30,847 nt of DNA, from positions 1-30,847 of IMG/VR virus record IMGVR_UViG_3300017750_004845; one strand, given 5' to 3'. The position numbers and the translations under genes are program-made. Positions 451-30,847 of the stretch are shown one piece after another. The first letter of the stretch is position 1; each line of letters begins with the position of its first letter. Below the pieces are notes generated by a model. That model did not search any database, had not been told where the DNA came from, and saw nothing but the letters and a program-made list of their open reading frames with translations. Origin of the DNA: a virus.

Positions 451-569
451 TGATGATAAGATACATCTGTGAGAAATGTGAATGCGAACAGCACTGTGGA
501 CGATCCTGCACAGAATGTCGAGACTGCCCGGACTGTGCCTGCAAGGAATGTGGTGGCGACGGAAAATAG
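450..569 (+). CDS. Tiny Cys-rich protein (39 aa), probable metal binder
   Basis: This short ORF starts at ATG 450, overlapping the previous stop as TAATG, with a second ATG at 453. It encodes 39 residues of which 10 are cysteine, in closely spaced pairs (CEKCEC, CTECRDCPDCAC, KEC), ending in GGDGK. Such spacing suggests a zinc or iron-sulfur binding knuckle. The frame is open from the coupled start to TAG at 567. It overlaps, in another frame, the longest possible N-terminus of the FkbM-type gene, whose upstream in-frame codons therefore are probably not translated. What is seen is the cysteine pattern and the coupled start; function and metal are inferred. It could be a chance ORF, but ten cysteines in register make that less likely. 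Confidence 0.55.
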   Translation: MMIRYICEKCECEQHCGRSCTECRDCPDCACKECGGDGK

Positions 570-1152
570 TTTTTGGGTGCTGTATGGACAGCACGACAAA
601 CCAACCTTCCTAGAAGATGCCGGTAACGGACAAAGACTACAAAGAGATACTGCACTGCGACACGTCAAAAACTGGCGTGTGTGCTTGGACATAGGTAGCA
701 ACATCGGACAATGGACCAGGCCCTTGGCGAATAAGTTTAGGAGCGTGATTTGTTTCGAACCAAATCCTAACTTCCGCGAGTGTTTCACCAAGAACATAAA
801 AGAAGATAACGTGGTGTTATGGCCATATGGGTTATCAGATAGATCACACTCGGCAAATCAGGATTTTAATTCAACAGTTCTAAACGAGGGCGAAGGTGAC
901 ATTAAGTGCATACCGCTTGACAGTTACAACTTCTCTGACGTGGACTTTGTCAAAATAGATGTTGATGGTTTTGAAATTCCTCTTTTGAAGGGTGCCAGAA
1001 AAACACTGACGAATAACAGTCCAGTAATCAATATTGAGATGAAGTACGACAAAAGAAGTCACATAGCCTACAAGTCGGCCAAGATACTGAAGGATCTCGG
1101 GTACAAATTTGTCAAAAGGACAAAAAGTGATGAGATTTGGATGAAATCGTAA
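553..1152 (+). CDS. FkbM-family SAM-dependent methyltransferase
   Basis: The protein has the Rossmann-type SAM fold of the FkbM methyltransferase family: motif I VCLDIGSNIGQWT, the acidic strand end ICFEPNP, a later LDSYNFSDVDFVKIDVDGFE segment and the C-terminal INIEMKY strand. FkbM enzymes O-methylate sugars or small molecules, and phage copies are often thought to modify glycans; the substrate here is unknown. The frame is open back to a GTG at 469, but that part overlaps the Cys-rich ORF and lacks family similarity. I prefer GTG 553 (or 550), preceded by AAGGA at 543-547. About 199 residues are then left, a compact but complete domain. No promoter is seen directly upstream, so it probably shares a message with the two preceding ORFs. 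Confidence 0.82.
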   Translation: MATENSFWVLYGQHDKPTFLEDAGNGQRLQRDTALRHVKNWRVCLDIGSNIGQWTRPLANKFRSVICFEPNPNFRECFTKNIKEDNVVLWPYGLSDRSHSANQDFNSTVLNEGEGDIKCIPLDSYNFSDVDFVKIDVDGFEIPLLKGARKTLTNNSPVINIEMKYDKRSHIAYKSAKILKDLGYKFVKRTKSDEIWMKS

Positions 1153-6012: not shown

Positions 6013-6429
6013 ATGGATAGGTTATTAGAGCTCGAACTCGAGTCGTTAAAGGACGGATTATTATTCTCCGCAAGGTTTTACAACAAGCCTGTGGTAATAT
6101 TCAACAGTGCATCTCAATGTGGATTTACAAAACAATTCGCTGAATTTCAAGTTTTATATGACGAGGGGAACATAGTACCAATAGCACTGCCTACCAACGA
6201 TTTCGGTGGCCAGGAACCAGGAGACAATTATGAAATATTACAATACTGTAGGACAAAATATAATGTGACTTTTCCTGTTTGCAAAAAAACTAATCTAGAT
6301 CATATCTTGTTCAAGACCTTTGGCAGACCAGACTGGAACTTCAACAAATATCTGTTCAACAAAGATCATATTTTTATTGATAAATTTGATTCGAACACCA
6401 AACCAAAAGAACTTATAGATCATGTCTAA
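6013..6429 (+). CDS. Glutathione peroxidase-family thiol peroxidase
   Basis: The 138-residue protein carries the full signature of the GPx family: IFNSASQCGFT with the peroxidatic Cys36, TNDFGGQEPGDN with Gln67, and the WNFNKYLF block with Trp108 and Asn109, completing the Cys-Gln-Trp-Asn tetrad. TFPVCKK follows the usual VTFP motif. Cys79 (LQYCRTKY) sits where thioredoxin-dependent GPx enzymes carry the resolving cysteine, so a 2-Cys thioredoxin-recycled peroxidase is likely. It would reduce hydrogen or lipid peroxides in the cytoplasm. At 138 residues it is shorter than most members (about 160-180), mainly at the N-terminus. Its last 8 bases overlap the radical SAM gene, so the two are probably translated together. 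No ribosome site is evident. Confidence 0.85.
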   Translation: MDRLLELELESLKDGLLFSARFYNKPVVIFNSASQCGFTKQFAEFQVLYDEGNIVPIALPTNDFGGQEPGDNYEILQYCRTKYNVTFPVCKKTNLDHILFKTFGRPDWNFNKYLFNKDHIFIDKFDSNTKPKELIDHV

Positions 6430-7699
6430 GACTTTCTGTTCATATCCATGGAGACATCAGTACGTCCATACCACAGGACATCAAAAGATATGTTGTATGA
6501 GTGAAGACAACATAGTCAAATCTGACGGGTATCTGCAGTACAACATGAGTAAAGACGAAGTGCTTGATTCTTGGAACAGTGATTACATGAAACGCATTAG
6601 ATTAAAAATGATAGCCGGTGAGCCTATTGTCAATTGTATAAAATGTGTTGAGAGTGAAGCAAAAGGACTTACCTCCATGCGAACGACTGCCAATAAAGAA
6701 AAGTACATTTCATCAACAAACGTAGACGGAAGTATAGATGACAAGCCAGACTCATTAGAATTACACTTTGGAAACACCTGCAACCTGCAATGTAAAATGT
6801 GTAGCCAACAGTTCAGTCACATGATAGGTAAAGAACTACTGAAGATGGGTGAACAGGATCCTAGTTTCCTGCAATGGGTAAAAAAAGAAAGTGGGGTGAT
6901 CAATAATTGGACAGGTGAACTGGACATAGCCTATGACTGGTATAAGAATGATAAAATTAAGAAAAGCATCTTTGACCATGTCAGCCGGAATGTTGAATCA
7001 TTAGTGGTTATAGGGGGTGAGCCAACGATAATCTCAGAGTTCTACGAGCTTCTTGGATATTGTCATTCCAACAATACCCTTAAAGATAAGTCGCTAACCA
7101 TAACAACTAACATGACCAACACCAATAAAAACTTATCAACATGGTTGGGCTCCGTGAAGGACTTTATGATCCACGCAAGTATAGACGGCTTGGACGAAAG
7201 GAACCGGTACATAAGATATCCTTGTAATTGGAAAAGTGTTCTCAAGTCATTGCAGTTCTACAAAGATGTAATGCAAAAACACAAACAAGCACACTTTAAC
7301 TTTGCACCGGCCATACAACTACTCAACATAGATCAACTGCCTGAACTTTGTAAATTTTTCATTGATAATTTTACTACAAAAAAATGTGACATAGCATGGG
7401 TATCACAGGTCAGGTATCCTATCATATGTGACTATGCTATCCTACCTACAGAACATAGGCATGGCATTGCTGACAAATTAAAAGAAAGTTCAAAACTAAT
7501 ACGCGATGAAAAAACGGCGGCACAGATTTTGTCACATTCGAATGATCTGCTAACCGAATCATTCAGCGATGCTGAGAAAAAAACATATCAAAAAATGTTC
7601 ATGAGATATAATGACAAACAGGATCAATTTAGGAAAACCAAACCCTGGAGAGCACTAATGCCGGATCTGGATCAGGCTTTGACAAATTCGACAAAATAA
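6422..7699 (+). CDS. Radical SAM protein, twitch/SPASM-type phage family
   Basis: The protein has 425 residues. The radical SAM cluster motif CX3CX2C is present at Cys120, Cys124 and Cys127 (GNTCNLQCKMCSQQ), followed by the GGEP element (VVIGGEPTI) and a typical TIM-barrel pattern. The N-terminal section contributes further cysteines (Cys6, ICCMSE, NCIKC) that could hold an auxiliary cluster, as in SPASM or twitch proteins. Such enzymes cleave SAM to a 5'-deoxyadenosyl radical and often modify peptides. Related proteins are frequent in marine T4-like phages and their substrate is unknown. The start overlaps the GPx stop by 8 bases, a sign of coupling; no ribosome site is seen. The family call is firm, the substrate open. 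Confidence 0.88.
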   Translation: MSKTFCSYPWRHQYVHTTGHQKICCMSEDNIVKSDGYLQYNMSKDEVLDSWNSDYMKRIRLKMIAGEPIVNCIKCVESEAKGLTSMRTTANKEKYISSTNVDGSIDDKPDSLELHFGNTCNLQCKMCSQQFSHMIGKELLKMGEQDPSFLQWVKKESGVINNWTGELDIAYDWYKNDKIKKSIFDHVSRNVESLVVIGGEPTIISEFYELLGYCHSNNTLKDKSLTITTNMTNTNKNLSTWLGSVKDFMIHASIDGLDERNRYIRYPCNWKSVLKSLQFYKDVMQKHKQAHFNFAPAIQLLNIDQLPELCKFFIDNFTTKKCDIAWVSQVRYPIICDYAILPTEHRHGIADKLKESSKLIRDEKTAAQILSHSNDLLTESFSDAEKKTYQKMFMRYNDKQDQFRKTKPWRALMPDLDQALTNSTK

Positions 7700-13695: not shown

Positions 13696-14946
13696 ATGGA
13701 TAATAAAGACTACAAGCCGGTCAACACCAATAAGGTAAAAGAAAATAGTTCACCTTTCACTGGTCCGTTAGGTTGGTTAGATAATAGGCTTCCTATCTTT
13801 CGAATGTTCAAACACGAATATTTAGATTTTCAAGTTCCTAAAAACTTAAATTACTTTTGGAGTTTTGGTGCAATTTTGACTTTTACTTTGTTAGGATTAA
13901 TAGCAACAGGATTGGTTCTAGGAATGCATTACAAACCTAGCGTGGCTGAAGCATTTAGCAGTGTAGAACACATCATGAGAGATGTCAATGGCGGTTGGCT
14001 TTTACGATATGCCCACATGAATTTAGCATCTTTCTTTTTCATAGCAGTCTACATACACATGTTCCGCGGACTCTATTTCGGGTCATACAAAGAACCAAGA
14101 CAGCTCATGTGGATATTTGGAATTATCATTTATTTCCTAATGATGGCGACTGCCTTTTTGGGATATGTACTACCATGGGGACAAATGAGCTATTGGGGAG
14201 CTACCGTGATAACCAGTCTGTTCGGAGCCATCCCATTAGTGGGAGAATCTATTGTTACATTACTATGGGGAGACTATGCAGTTGGCGACGCATTCTTGAA
14301 TAGAGCTTTCGTGCTACACTGGTTAATAGCATTCTTGATAGTGGCTGTGGTTGTTTTCCATGTCATTGCGTTACACATGACAGGGTCTAATAATCCAACA
14401 GGTGTAGAGCCCAAGGACACACGTGATACTATAACATTCCATCCTTACATTACAATAAAAGACCTTTACGCATTCCTAGTTTTTATTTTAATCTTTATGT
14501 TCTTCTTGTTTAATTTTCCAAACATACTTGGACACCCTGACAATTACATAGAAGCTAATCCATTGGTGACTCCAGCACACATTGTACCTGAGTGGTACTT
14601 CTTACCATGGTATGCAGTCTTACGTGCCATACCTGATAAACTAGGTGGAGTGATAGCTATGGTGTCTGCGATAGGCGTCATGGGACTTTTACCTTGGTTA
14701 GATACAAGCAAGATAAGATCAAACATCTACAGACCGATCTGGAAACAGTTTACCTGGTTCCTCGTTGGTGACTTTTTCCTACTGATGTACTGTGGCGCCA
14801 TGCCGGCAGAAGGAATATGGATAATGTTAAGTAGGATCGGAACAGGTTATTGGTTCTTATATTTTTTAGTACTGGCTCCGACGGTTGGATGGTTGGAAAA
14901 ACCGCAACTCATACCAGAAGCAATTCATCTAAGAAACAAGAAATAG
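13696..14946 (+). CDS. petB: Cytochrome b (bc1 complex subunit)
   Basis: This is a full-length 416-residue cytochrome b, the quinol-oxidising core of the respiratory bc1 complex in the inner membrane. All four b-haem ligands are present with the standard 14-residue spacing: His107 (RYAHMN) and His121 (YIHMFRG), His208 (VLHWL) and His222 (FHVIALH). The Qo-site PEWY motif is at 298-301 (VPEWYFLPWYAVLRAIPDK), and eight or so hydrophobic helices are evident. The extended N-terminus (FTGPLGWLDNRLP) is of proteobacterial type. No Rieske or cytochrome c1 gene is in the window, so the product would have to join host partners. It sits 12 bases after nrdB, in the same direction and with similar codon usage by eye. 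It looks intact rather than decayed. The family is certain; the benefit to the phage is inferred. Confidence 0.96.
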   Translation: MDNKDYKPVNTNKVKENSSPFTGPLGWLDNRLPIFRMFKHEYLDFQVPKNLNYFWSFGAILTFTLLGLIATGLVLGMHYKPSVAEAFSSVEHIMRDVNGGWLLRYAHMNLASFFFIAVYIHMFRGLYFGSYKEPRQLMWIFGIIIYFLMMATAFLGYVLPWGQMSYWGATVITSLFGAIPLVGESIVTLLWGDYAVGDAFLNRAFVLHWLIAFLIVAVVVFHVIALHMTGSNNPTGVEPKDTRDTITFHPYITIKDLYAFLVFILIFMFFLFNFPNILGHPDNYIEANPLVTPAHIVPEWYFLPWYAVLRAIPDKLGGVIAMVSAIGVMGLLPWLDTSKIRSNIYRPIWKQFTWFLVGDFFLLMYCGAMPAEGIWIMLSRIGTGYWFLYFLVLAPTVGWLEKPQLIPEAIHLRNKK

Positions 14947-18007: not shown

Positions 18008-18300
18008 TTAAAGTAGGCCCGTTCTGTTGCAAGGTGGGCCAAACCCCTGAAATTATTGGTTATTACGCCGCTAATCTCAATTCAGACATACCAACTGTTA
18101 AGTCGGCAAATCCTAATGCTCTTTTGTTTGCATTTAAAAAACAGCCTGATTAGGTCAGTGCCATCACCGTAAACTCCCAAGACCTTTACACACCCGTCGA
18201 ATCTAGTTCACCCCCGGAAGGGATTACATAAGCCACCAAGTAATAAAATGGTGGAGGTGGTCGGTACTGCCCCGACGTCCGAAATGTTTATTTCGCCGTG
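18008..18300 (-). ncRNA. ssrA: Circularly permuted two-piece tmRNA
   Basis: On the minus strand the acceptor piece comes first: a T-arm (stem GUCGG/CCGAC with a 7-base loop), the acceptor strand CACCUCC, discriminator A and an encoded CCA ending at 18249. After an intervening segment, the coding piece begins at 18215 with GGGGGUG, which pairs with CACCUCC over 7 bp, followed by the conserved UUCGAC. A 22-codon tag frame runs from GCA at 18131 to two stops (UAAUAA) at 18065; the peptide starts ANKRALGF and ends ELRLAA. A GGCCC/GGGCC stem near 18014-18042 matches the final pseudoknot region. This gene order is the alphaproteobacterial permuted type. tmRNA frees stalled ribosomes and tags the products for proteolysis. 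The T-loop (GGCAGTA) lacks the TTC of normal tRNAs. The outer ends are approximate. Confidence 0.93.
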
Positions 18301-18319
18301 ATCAACATTTACAAATATA

Positions 18320-18348
18320 ATTATACGTTAAGGTTGACGTTGTGTCAA
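18320..18348 (-). promoter_or_regulatory. Sigma70-type promoter for tmRNA
   Basis: On the minus strand TTGACA (18348-18343) and TATAAT (18325-18320) are both perfect and separated by 17 bases. Transcription would begin near 18313, just before the acceptor piece. Confidence 0.85.
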
Positions 18349-18362
18349 CTTTGTGCTAAATT
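18333..18362 (+). promoter_or_regulatory. Divergent promoter overlapping the tmRNA promoter
   Basis: On the plus strand TTGACG (18334-18339) and TAAATT (18357-18362) lie 17 bases apart, with TG just before the -10. The -35 boxes of both directions form the inverted repeat GTTGAC-gttgt-GTCAAC (18333-18349). The start would fall near 18369, next to the ATG at 18370. Confidence 0.65.
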
Positions 18363-20778: not shown

Positions 20779-21283
20779 CCTGCCTGAGATAAACTTCAAG
20801 GCCAAAGATAGACCCGGGTTGAAAGAACTTGCAAACTATATTGATAAAATGAAGACAGACCTGTTCAATGACAAGTGGAGCCAGGCCACAAAAAAACACA
20901 TAAAGACATCGTTGGTGCTGTACATAAGATCCATGCAGAAACAATTGGCACCAATGGGATACCATTATAAAGCACAGGACATGGAAGGTAAGCAACACCT
21001 AGAACACGTGATACCACAGAACAAGATAGTGACAGCATATCTACATGACAAGATATCAGCTGAACTTGTGCTACAGATGCCATTGTGTTTGATAGATGAT
21101 GCGGATAAGCACATACTCGAAGGTGATTGGCAACAATCAGGTAACTGGCAATATCCGTTCCGAAGATACAAGTTGGCAGGCTACTCTAAAGTTATTAAAG
21201 ATGTACGTGGCAACACGGTCGAACTAGACAGTTACACCATACAAGATCACTTCAAGATGTTGGGTGTGGTTGACTTATCCTAG
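20753..21283 (+). CDS. Possible HNH-like nuclease or hypothetical protein
   Basis: The 176-residue protein is basic and helical at first (WSQATKKHIKTSLVLYIRSM). Its centre contains QHLEHVIPQNKIV, similar to the first strand of HNH nucleases (DHIIP), followed by a long helix and PLCLIDDADKHIL, which could supply the later Asn/His part. The match is partial and I cannot confirm the metal site. It starts within the previous gene (26-base overlap) and ends inside the promoter of the next transcript. If it is an HNH enzyme, a role in host or competitor DNA breakage is possible; otherwise it is hypothetical. Confidence 0.55.
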   Translation: MIDFQSLTNLPEINFKAKDRPGLKELANYIDKMKTDLFNDKWSQATKKHIKTSLVLYIRSMQKQLAPMGYHYKAQDMEGKQHLEHVIPQNKIVTAYLHDKISAELVLQMPLCLIDDADKHILEGDWQQSGNWQYPFRRYKLAGYSKVIKDVRGNTVELDSYTIQDHFKMLGVVDLS

Positions 21284-21297
21284 GATCTGTGTATAAT
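21270..21297 (+). promoter_or_regulatory. Early sigma70-type promoter
   Basis: TTGACT (21270-21275) and TATAAT (21292-21297) are 16 bases apart. The -35 box lies inside the end of the preceding gene. Transcription would start near 21304. Confidence 0.75.
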
Positions 21298-21303
21298 TAA
21301 GAC

Positions 21304-21446
21304 AGCAAATCCACCAGAGCTGGTAAGGTACCAATTCTCATTTGCAAACTAAACATAGGAGACACTTTATGTCGATGATGTATAGAATAGCCTGATAGAA
21401 GGGCGAGGTTGGAGTCAATAACGGACTGGTGGATAGCTAATTCATT
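21304..21446 (+). ncRNA. Structured leader RNA with alternative stems
   Basis: ATCCACCAG (21309-21317) is a perfect 9-bp complement of CTGGTGGAT (21426-21434), closing a domain of about 125 bases. The same 5' segment also holds GCAAAT (21305-21310), which can pair with ATTTGC (21340-21345), so near and far stems exclude each other in part. Between them lie a good ribosome site (ATAGGAG, 21355-21361), an 8-codon ORF and an AGTC/GACT hairpin. The layout resembles an attenuator or riboswitch leader upstream of the gene at 21447. I match it to no known class. Confidence 0.5.
21369..21395 (+). CDS. Possible 8-codon leader peptide
   Basis: ATG 21369 to TGA 21395 encodes MSMMYRIA behind a well-placed ATAGGAG site with 7-base spacing. 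It sits inside the paired leader RNA, so ribosomes on it would affect the fold. It may be a regulatory leader peptide; the tiny size makes it uncertain. Confidence 0.35.
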   Translation: MSMMYRIA

Positions 21447-21944
21447 ATGCCAAGCGAGAAAACAAAAAAATTACTAGAAGGATTGGGTAAAATTACAGAT
21501 TCGTCGCCTAAAACCTTTGCCGAACAGAAGTACCATTCTTATACCAATCGATACTACACTAACACTTTACAAAAATTGCCTGCTAGATATGAAAAGGCCA
21601 AACGTAAGAAAGACCAAGATGGTGATGAATACATAATGATTGATAGGGTCTATGGCTCATTGTATGAGGATCACTTGTTACAAAAGGATGGTTCTACCTA
21701 CACGGGTAAATTGTATAAAAAAAGAAGATTGATTATTAGGAAAGATACTATTACAGGCGAGAAGAAGAACTTCTTCAGTACATGCACCACAACTGCAGAT
21801 GGGAGATGGTTTGACAATACAGGACTTCCAATTGAAGCACCGGAAAAACTTGAACCTGAAAAACAAAAATCCCCAGAAGATATCGAAGAAGAGAAAAGAT
21901 TATCGGCCCAAAAAGAGGCTAGAATACTTGCCAATCTAAAATAA
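21447..21944 (+). CDS. Hypothetical basic protein (165 aa)
   Basis: I do not recognise this protein. It is rich in Lys, Arg and Tyr; the N-terminal half is basic and Tyr-rich (AEQKYHSYTNRYYTNTLQKLPARYEKAK). The middle looks beta-rich (GKLYKKRRLIIRKDTITG, FFSTCTTTADGRWFDNTG), and the C-terminus is a Glu- and Lys-rich helix (SPEDIEEEKRLSAQKE). Nucleic-acid binding is plausible from the charge. The ATG at 21447 has no good ribosome site of its own and sits just after the structured leader RNA, which may control it. Confidence 0.65.
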   Translation: MPSEKTKKLLEGLGKITDSSPKTFAEQKYHSYTNRYYTNTLQKLPARYEKAKRKKDQDGDEYIMIDRVYGSLYEDHLLQKDGSTYTGKLYKKRRLIIRKDTITGEKKNFFSTCTTTADGRWFDNTGLPIEAPEKLEPEKQKSPEDIEEEKRLSAQKEARILANLK

Positions 21945-21971
21945 CCTAATAAAACCAATGGTTATACCAGG

Positions 21972-21999
21972 TTGACGTAATACCAAAAGCTGTTATAAT
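21972..21999 (+). promoter_or_regulatory. Early sigma70-type promoter
   Basis: TTGACG (21972-21977) and TATAAT (21994-21999) are 16 bases apart, leaving an 18-base leader with a strong AAAGGAGAG ribosome site before ATG 22024. Confidence 0.82.
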
Positions 22000-22023
22000 A
22001 ATGGTAACAAAGGAGAGAAGACA

Positions 22024-28391: not shown

Positions 28392-28760
28392 ATGGGACTA
28401 AATTTAAAAATGTTTGACACTCTGGGTATGGTTACTCTAGTGACACCACCATCCATGCTTAATCCGGAGAAGATTAGTTTTACGCTGATACATTTAAAGG
28501 AAAAAGAAAAGAATCATTTTGCAACACAACTAAACAAAGTGTTTCCAAATGATAATTGCACTGTATTCATTTATGATACTGTGGGTAACAACGGTTGGCT
28601 AAAACAAGCAATATCTAAATCAAAATATGTGATAATGGAAAAGGACAAAGCGCCATTATGGATAGAGGAATTGATTCCTGAATCAAAAACTTATTATATT
28701 TCTGCGGAGCAAACAGTTGAACAAACATTCCAGAAGATCAACGAAGAAAGGAAGGACTGA
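28392..28760 (+). CDS. Hypothetical protein upstream of clpX
   Basis: The 122-residue protein has an alpha/beta composition with LVTPPSMLNPEKISFTLIHL, a long polar stretch (KEKEKNHFATQLNKVFPN) and CTVFIYDT. A later VIMEKDKAPLWIEELI segment leads into a C-terminal helix. No signal or membrane segment is seen. It begins 4 bases after the large membrane protein gene and its TGA stop shares a base with the clpX start (TGATG), so the three form one transcript. No family recognised; an adaptor or regulatory role near ClpX is only a context-based guess. Confidence 0.66.
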   Translation: MGLNLKMFDTLGMVTLVTPPSMLNPEKISFTLIHLKEKEKNHFATQLNKVFPNDNCTVFIYDTVGNNGWLKQAISKSKYVIMEKDKAPLWIEELIPESKTYYISAEQTVEQTFQKINEERKD

Positions 28761-30010
28761 TGACAGAAGAAGCATTGATATGCTCATTTTGTAGCAAAAG
28801 CCGTAAAGACGTTACCAAAATGATAGTGGGTGCCAAGAAGACATCCATATGTAATGAATGTGTAAAACTGTGCGTTGAGATACTAGATGAGGACATAGTC
28901 AAGGCTCGTAAGGAAAAACTATACTCGGGTGACAAGAGCATACTAAATCCTGTGTCTATAAAGGAACACCTTGATCAATATGTCATAGGACAGGACGCCG
29001 CAAAGACTGTGTTGTCAGTAGCGGTAGCAAACCATTACAAAAGAATAGTTCAACCACCAATTGAGTTCGATCTAGACAAGTCTAATGTCATGGTGCTTGG
29101 AGCCACTGGTGCAGGCAAGACTCTCATGGCCAGAACCATAGCAAAATATTTGGACGTTCCTTTTGCGATAGCAGACGCGACCACGCTGACCGAATCAGGT
29201 TACGTGGGAGAAGACGTAGAGAACGTTGTGCAGAAACTATACGCAAACGCTGATGGTGATATAGAAAAAACACAAAAAGGAATCATATTCATAGACGAGA
29301 TTGACAAGATATGTAGGAAAGGTGAGAACACATCACTGACCAGAGATGTATCAGGAGAGGGAGTACAGCAGGGTTTATTAAAGATAGTGGAGGGCACAGA
29401 GTGTAGGGTTCCGCCACATGGTGGCAGGAAACACCCCGATCAGCAAACCATCAGCATAGACACATCCAACATTCTTTTTATAGTTGGAGGTGCATTCACA
29501 GAACTAGAGAAACAGATTAGAAGAAAAAAAGCATCAGGTGGTATAGGGTTCGGAACGCAACTGAAAGAGCAGGATGAGAAAAATTATCTTTCCGATGTGC
29601 AACCCGAGGATCTAATTAAGTATGGACTGATCCCTGAGTTTGTTGGTAGGTTCTCGATGCTTACCAGTATAGACCCATTAGATGAATCACAGTTGATCCG
29701 TATCTTGACTGAACCAAAGAACGCCATACTAAAACAGACACACTATCTGTTTGGACTGGACAATATAGACATTGAATTTACCAAAGAGGCGAAGCAGAGC
29801 ATAGCACGTAAGGCCAAGGAGCTGGGTACCAACGCAAGGGGACTGAAAAATGTAGTAGACACAGTGGTTCTGCCATATCAGTTTGATGCCGAAGAGATGA
29901 GAAACAGAGGAGTCAGTAAAATACAGATAACTAATGCGGTGGTTGACAGCGGAGCCGACCCTGTGTTAGTATTTAAAAAAGCAAATGGAATATCAAAAAA
30001 ACAAAACTAG
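28760..30010 (+). CDS. clpX: ATP-dependent unfoldase ClpX
   Basis: ClpX unfolds tagged proteins and feeds them to ClpP. The 416-residue protein is nearly full length (E. coli 424). The N-terminal zinc domain has Cys8, Cys11, Cys31 and Cys34. The AAA+ core has Walker A (GATGAGKT, 114-121), pore loop GYVG (147-150), Walker B (IIFIDE, 175-180), the RKH loop (223-225) and sensor-2 (GTNARGLKN). The ClpP-docking IGF loop is intact (SGGIGFGTQ, 260-267), so it could dock on host ClpP. No clpP gene is in the window. The start overlaps the previous stop and the bS21 gene overlaps its end by 26 bases. With a phage tmRNA whose tag ends LAA, a coordinated role is likely but unproven. Confidence 0.96.
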
Positions 30011-30397: not shown

Positions 30398-30847
30398 ATG
30401 AAAAACAATCTATCTATTTTTAATAACCTAAGACCAATAACCGTAGGGTTTGATGATATGTTCGACCACTTTGAGCATATGATGGATGATGGCTTCTTTA
30501 GAACTGGAGCAAACTTCCCACCATACAACATAGTAAAAACTGGAGATAACACCTACGACGTTGAACTTGCACTTGCAGGTTTTGGTAAAGATGACATTGA
30601 AGTTGAATACAAAGAGAATCAACTTACAGTAAAATCTAAAACCAACAAGGATGATGCAGAGGAAGTTGACAAGTATGACAACGGAGTCCTACACAGAGGA
30701 ATCAGCAAAAGATTTTTCAGTAAGTCATTTACCATTGCAAATGATGTTGAGGTCAAAGGTGCAGAACTGAAAGATGGTTTGCTTAAAGTGAGCCTGGAGA
30801 GAATAATTCCAGAACACAAAAAAGCGAAGACTATCGATATCAAGTAA
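30398..30847 (+). CDS. hsp20: Small heat-shock protein, Hsp20/IbpA type
   Basis: The 149-residue protein is a full alpha-crystallin-domain chaperone. It has the IbpA-type FPPYNIVKTGDNTYDVELALAGF segment, ENQLTVKSK, LHRGISKRFFSKSF and the closing GAELKDGLLKVSLERIIPEH. Such proteins form oligomers that hold unfolding proteins without ATP. I chose ATG 30398 because AGGAGG precedes it; an upstream in-frame ATG at 30335 would begin inside the leader hairpin. The promoter combines sigma70 and late elements, so it may be made throughout infection. It could help virion assembly or protein quality, along with ClpX. The gene ends at the last base of the window. Confidence 0.94.
   Translation: MKNNLSIFNNLRPITVGFDDMFDHFEHMMDDGFFRTGANFPPYNIVKTGDNTYDVELALAGFGKDDIEVEYKENQLTVKSKTNKDDAEEVDKYDNGVLHRGISKRFFSKSFTIANDVEVKGAELKDGLLKVSLERIIPEHKKAKTIDIK

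Follow-up and report, generated by a model that had tools for sequence, protein, structure and literature searches.

What lies between a phage promoter and the start codon at position 21447, and does it control the gene that begins there? The DNA analysed, hereafter the window, is the 30,847-nt (approximately 30.8 kb) IMG/VR virus record IMGVR_UViG_3300017750_004845, positions 1-30,847. The original prediction for this locus rested on a promoter, a 9-bp and a 6-bp stem, AGGAGA, an ATG at 21369, the reading frame MSMMYRIA* and the gene at 21447, all of which are present in the sequence. We propose that the intervening RNA probably represents a new leader family that acts in cis, governing how translation of the orphan gene at 21447 is initiated.

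The window is part of an uncultured T4-like marine phage; its ribonucleotide reductase is nearest to the versions found in T4-like cyanophages and Pelagibacter phage Mosig. The same phage contig carries a full-length cytochrome b gene (13696-14946, + strand; Pfam 1.7e-66), copies of which are 86-93% identical in related viral contigs L047, L048, and L147, with only one weak relative among 50,697 isolate phage records. A permuted tmRNA gene of alphaproteobacterial type lies at 18012-18352 (- strand), as it does at 479-832 (- strand) in relative L014, and genes for a ClpX-like ATPase, Hsp20, and a radical-SAM protein lie at 28760-30010, 30398-30844, and 6422-7699, respectively.

Architecture of the Leader RNA

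The predicted elements of the locus are listed below.

21270-21297, + strand: sigma-70-type promoter, TTGACT-N16-TATAAT, recognised by sequence (TTGACT 21270-21275, TATAAT 21292-21297)
21304-21438, + strand: structured leader RNA, whole element (covariance model R1, E = 1.5e-34; covariation)
21304-21317, + strand: 5' strand of P1 (AGC 21304-21306 and ATCCACCAG 21309-21317), pairing with 21426-21438
21320-21322, + strand: continuation of P1, CUG, pairing with 21422-21424 by varied pair types
21331-21339, + strand: 5' strand of P2, CCAA-UU-CUC, pairing with GAG-G-UUGG at 21405-21412
21340-21360, + strand: J2/3, with conserved AUUUG..A (alignment conservation)
21361-21373, + strand: hairpin P3, GACA-CUUUA-UGUC, loop YNYUA (closing-pair changes), including the supposed start codon 21369-21371
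21374-21389, + strand: J3/4 (alignments)
21390-21404, + strand: hairpin P4, GCC...GGC (covarying helix and alignment), with optional loop extensions in relatives
21405-21412, + strand: 3' strand of P2, GAG-G-UUGG, immediately 3' of P4 (GA in 34/34 rows)
21422-21438, + strand: 3' strand of P1 (CGG 21422-21424, CUGGUGGAU 21426-21434, and GCU 21436-21438), ending 8 nt 5' of the start codon
21447-21944, + strand: orphan gene, 165 aa, motif TADGRWFDNxGxPI, the sole gene found downstream of the leader RNA

The promoter is a near-consensus sigma-70 sequence, and the transcript would begin at the helix, with a predicted start at approximately 21303-21305, where base pairing of the RNA sets in. The pattern TTGAC-N-TAnnnT was found at an equal distance in 26 of 33 leaders, and the six leaders located 3' of a gene for initiation factor IF-1 (L015-L017 and L025-L027) have no promoter of their own. 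An extended promoter form common to the phage group, GGTTGAC..AT..CCAAA...TATAATGGTAA, occurs at 21966-22010 of the window and also before the L014, L058, and L065 leaders.

As modelled, the leader is a long helix (P1/P2) of nearly free sequence, topped by a three-way junction with conserved unpaired bases. P1 varies in sequence across relatives and keeps its pairing; the conserved sequence lies in the junction and comprises UCAUUU...A, the P3 loop YNYUA, P4, and GA. The junction-end pairs of P2, U-A and C-G, are invariant in all 34 rows of the final alignment, as are U21342 and A21347 in J2/3, where A21340 is kept in 33. The closing pair of P3 changes from A-U to G-C and C-G in 17 of the 34 rows. 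A 5' structure that merely protects the mRNA from decay would agree with the predicted 5' end lying within a helix; for that purpose, however, a plain hairpin would suffice, and the invariant junction bases need another reason. We consider this explanation unlikely.

Relatives may also carry optional pieces, namely extra hairpins and an extension of P4, often with GUGACA. This loop recurs in the P4 extension of L002, L009, L011, L012, L014, L019, L023, L065, and L079 and is possibly a second recognition element.

Conservation of the Structure among Relatives

A single-sequence search of viral contigs placed relatives of the 165-aa downstream protein at 35 loci, and a profile search found 63 relatives among viral contigs; four further relatives came from genome bins, at least two of them resembling phage contigs. 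Neither the gene nor the RNA had a relative in the 50,697 isolate phage records (tblastn and blastn). Upstream of the gene, near relatives carry the conserved leader and remote ones a like architecture. These viral relatives, whose fold covaries, bear out the proposal of a new leader RNA of regulatory type directly before the gene. Most relatives were gathered through the gene, so that the search favours RNAs located next to it; scans of complete records with the covariance model and pattern scans on the RNA alone lessen this bias without removing it.

The structure signal from the window sequence itself is modest to weak. Its fold z-score is -2.2, and a perfect 9-bp stem arose by chance in 127 of 5000 shuffles of the stretch (2.5%) and in 17 of 654 equal-sized pieces of the window (2.6%). 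When ten close relatives were aligned with MAFFT on sequence alone, RNAalifold recovered P1, P2, P3, and P4, with five double-changed pairs. The covariance model R1, trained on the ten close relatives, was scanned against 397 kb and gave 27 matches, strong and weak, every one at a homologous site and none elsewhere. Relatives outside the training set were matched at E = 6.5e-9 (L098), 6.3e-6 (L016), and 1.3e-4 (L058). A second model, R2, matched eight further held-out leaders, seven at E ≤ 0.002 and L026 at 0.05, with no match away from those leader sites in the 181 kb scanned.

The final alignment comprises 34 distinct rows and was fitted to the structure, toward which it leans; the held-out matches and the unfitted alignment are free of this bias. 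In the final alignment, 95.9% of cells form standard pairs, compared with 67% after shuffling, and 24 of the 28 base pairs show double (compensatory) changes. The covariation score was 0.66, against 0.17 for shuffled and ≤0.09 for slid controls. The 9-bp stem of the original prediction (21309-21317 with 21426-21434) is real and forms part of P1, with strong covariation across the 34 rows. Parsimony on the protein tree counted approximately 156 double changes among 180, a figure to be read loosely given that the tree is poorly resolved and the histories of RNA and protein sometimes differ. Free-energy z-scores of 33 leaders had a median of -3.3, and the leader has a conserved core with covarying helices, the aptamer-like arrangement expected of a riboswitch. 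Taken across relatives, these comparisons argue that the structured RNA with its long stem is real, far beyond chance.

The leader was said to match no known RNA class, and this held. Rfam 15 at gathering score, run on the window and eight relatives, returned only tmRNA matches located elsewhere, and permissive scans gave only sub-threshold matches. A short search of open papers by title and abstract found none describing the leader RNA. A hammerhead was considered and rejected, the conserved CUGANGA/GAAA core not being seen by eye.

The Mini-ORF and the Competing Stem

The window itself offers AGGAGA, an ATG, and eight codons, from which a leader-peptide attenuator or mini-ORF switch could be read. 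We find this extremely improbable. What was taken for a start codon forms the 3' arm of hairpin P3, and the mini-ORF (21369-21395, + strand) was rejected as a gene. In 6 of 15 close relatives (L005, L008, L023, L024, L046, and L113) the ATG reads ACG and the opposing A has become G; because the change is compensated on the other arm, the P3 pair is kept while the start codon is lost. MSMMYRIA is not conserved: start codon, length, and peptide sequence all vary. The peptide spans 5 to 44 codons in close relatives, most of which lack AGGAG; among those that retain the ATG, the frame covers 5 to 30 codons.

The local stem (21305-21310 with 21340-21345), put forward as the switch partner of the 9-bp stem, showed no covariation. 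In the close group, 83 of 90 cells were paired, compared with 82.3 after shuffling, and the stem pairs well there because the sequence hardly changes. In the distant group the count was 53 of 114 cells against 52.4, and the stem is absent from distant relatives. A switch between these two stems is therefore not supported; another switch may exist, and our search found no alternative fold with family-wide support. Of the proposed attenuator or riboswitch, the attenuator was discarded and the riboswitch-like core with covarying helices stood. The gene at 21447 was correctly described as having no Shine-Dalgarno sequence, but as a sign of regulation this means little, because about one in two genes of this phage has none.

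Genomic Context and Copy Number

In most of 31 relatives the bottom of P1 and the start codon are 5-10 nt apart, irrespective of the P1 sequence; the gap is most often 7-8 nt, and its extremes are 0, with the start codon at the helix or within it, and 16 nt. The leader RNA is present as a single copy in 22 of 25 viral records, and the other three, whose gene has no leader, contain no copy. It always stands upstream of the orphan gene. The genes further upstream fall into approximately eight groups, and promoter, RNA, and gene remain together despite these changing neighbours. RNA-sequence pattern scans of the viral collection gave no convincing copy elsewhere. The RNA was thus located only at its own gene, as expected of an autogenous leader, with the bias of a search through the gene attached to this result. 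Pattern matches to DNA at L146, L148, L149, and L150 had no leader, L143 had no fold context, and a weak covariance model match in G026:C4 fell within a fliO/fliP-like coding sequence; all were judged to be chance.

The family to which the Pelagibacter bin G025 belongs was surveyed through 397 genomes, and of these only G025 carries a copy of the leader. The copy lies at a contig end, the gene itself continuing on another contig of the bin (L112), and the contig with the leader is probably a phage contig. These data bear on a metabolite riboswitch, in which the junction would bind a small molecule and P1 would be the expression platform. The leader's sequence-free helices, invariant unpaired junction bases, and P1 beside the start codon correspond to how translational riboswitches are usually built. 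Riboswitch classes usually recur ahead of several genes of one pathway, however, whereas this leader precedes one orphan gene, in phages only. The genomes of the putative host family, except for the probable phage contig, hold no copy, and no alternative fold has family-wide support. We regard a metabolite riboswitch as rather unlikely.

In L015-L017 and L025-L027, the gene upstream codes for a phage version of IF-1, the translation initiation factor (two representatives gave Pfam E-values of 5e-17 to 2e-23). P1 starts inside or at the end of the IF-1 coding sequence in L015, L017, and L025-L027. In L015 and L017 it pairs the last IF-1 codons with the start-codon region, and the opening cost is highest there. 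This branch is relevant to a trans-acting or packaging-type small RNA, similar to the phi29 pRNA, that would be made from the gene's leader. The transcript start and P1 would give a nearly blunt closed molecule, and there is one copy per genome. The narrow gap of 5-10 nt before the start codon speaks against such an RNA, as does the IF-1 group, which has no promoter of its own and P1 partly within the upstream coding sequence. A terminator-like U run after the stem is also absent from the window sequence. We give the small RNA little credence.

RNA type and protein type disagree in L024, L046, and L098, which suggests that leader and gene have been swapped separately by recombination.

The Downstream Gene Product

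Searches of Pfam, PHROG, NCBIfam, and PDB gave no match to the 165-aa protein. Nothing usable came from fold searches either: no interpretation is placed on the best VIA Z-scores, 2.8 and 2.7, and some ribosomal S17-like rows from Foldseek had E above 1 and were discounted. The protein is small and beta-rich, with a conserved core, and no RNA-binding fold was recognised in it.

Its small size, beta-rich character, and conserved core are consistent with autogenous control, in which the gene product would bind its own leader, and the pairing of RNA and gene is exclusive through all detected divergence. Against it, many protein homologues occur without the RNA, the protein shows no recognised RNA-binding fold, and similar RNAs stand before differently branching proteins (L024 and L046), so that the two do not track each other strictly. 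Autogenous control is a tentative possibility. Both it and the metabolite riboswitch are special cases of control of initiation by the leader, and the confidences attached to them overlap with it and need not sum to one.

Probable Control of Translation Initiation

Control of translation initiation is the reading we prefer. Opening the region from -20 to +15 is predicted to cost a mean of 14.2 kcal/mol in the family, compared with 7.3 ± 3.0 kcal/mol for 33 other genes of the window. The window's own leader ranks third of 34 in this respect, and a few relatives (L003, L007, and L021) fall in the ordinary range. The 3' strand of P1 holds no conserved Shine-Dalgarno sequence, so that the leader differs from a classical ribosome site hidden by sequestration.

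Transcription would start at the helix, and a closed helix inside the 30S footprint would make initiation costly. A factor recognising the conserved junction and the P3 loop may then shift the helix between closed and open, setting the amount of protein. This factor might be a small ligand or a protein, the latter encoded by the phage, by the host, or by the orphan gene itself. In the IF-1 branch, ribosomes translating the last part of IF-1 would open P1, thereby coupling both genes.

Alternatively, the folded RNA might replace the Shine-Dalgarno sequence as a ribosome-recruiting element, with the bottom of the helix at the usual position of the Shine-Dalgarno helix. By docking to an initiation factor or the 30S subunit, the junction would position the start codon. 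This fits the narrow spacing to the start codon, and an upstream IF-1 gene in one branch would fit as well; we nonetheless hold recruitment to be improbable.

As a structured RNA family the leader is well supported; it has no entry in Rfam and occurs in uncultured marine phages before one conserved gene with no annotated function. Because the distance from helix to start codon is kept while the sequence changes almost fully, initiation control in phages that often lack a Shine-Dalgarno sequence becomes accessible to compensatory mutants. Phage contigs can be annotated with the covariance model.

Comparison with Known Systems

The trp and his attenuators likewise place a leader RNA before a gene, but the present leader has no conserved peptide, terminator, or supported alternative stems. 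The phi29 pRNA is a free phage RNA with a long closing helix, a three-way junction, and two hairpins. Its likeness to the leader is one of topology alone: the leader is tied to a start codon, and no loop-loop complementarity of the phi29 type was seen by eye to be kept across relatives. The S15 leader and other autogenous mRNA leaders of ribosomal proteins are similarly structured, lie immediately before the gene, and may control initiation, as this leader may; the protein encoded here, in contrast, is no recognised ribosomal protein, and its binding is hypothetical. Compared with three-way-junction translational riboswitches of the purine type, the leader has no Rfam match, a different junction sequence, a single orphan gene, and a ligand that is only hypothetical, but it shares with them variable helices, conserved junction bases, and a closing helix by the start codon.
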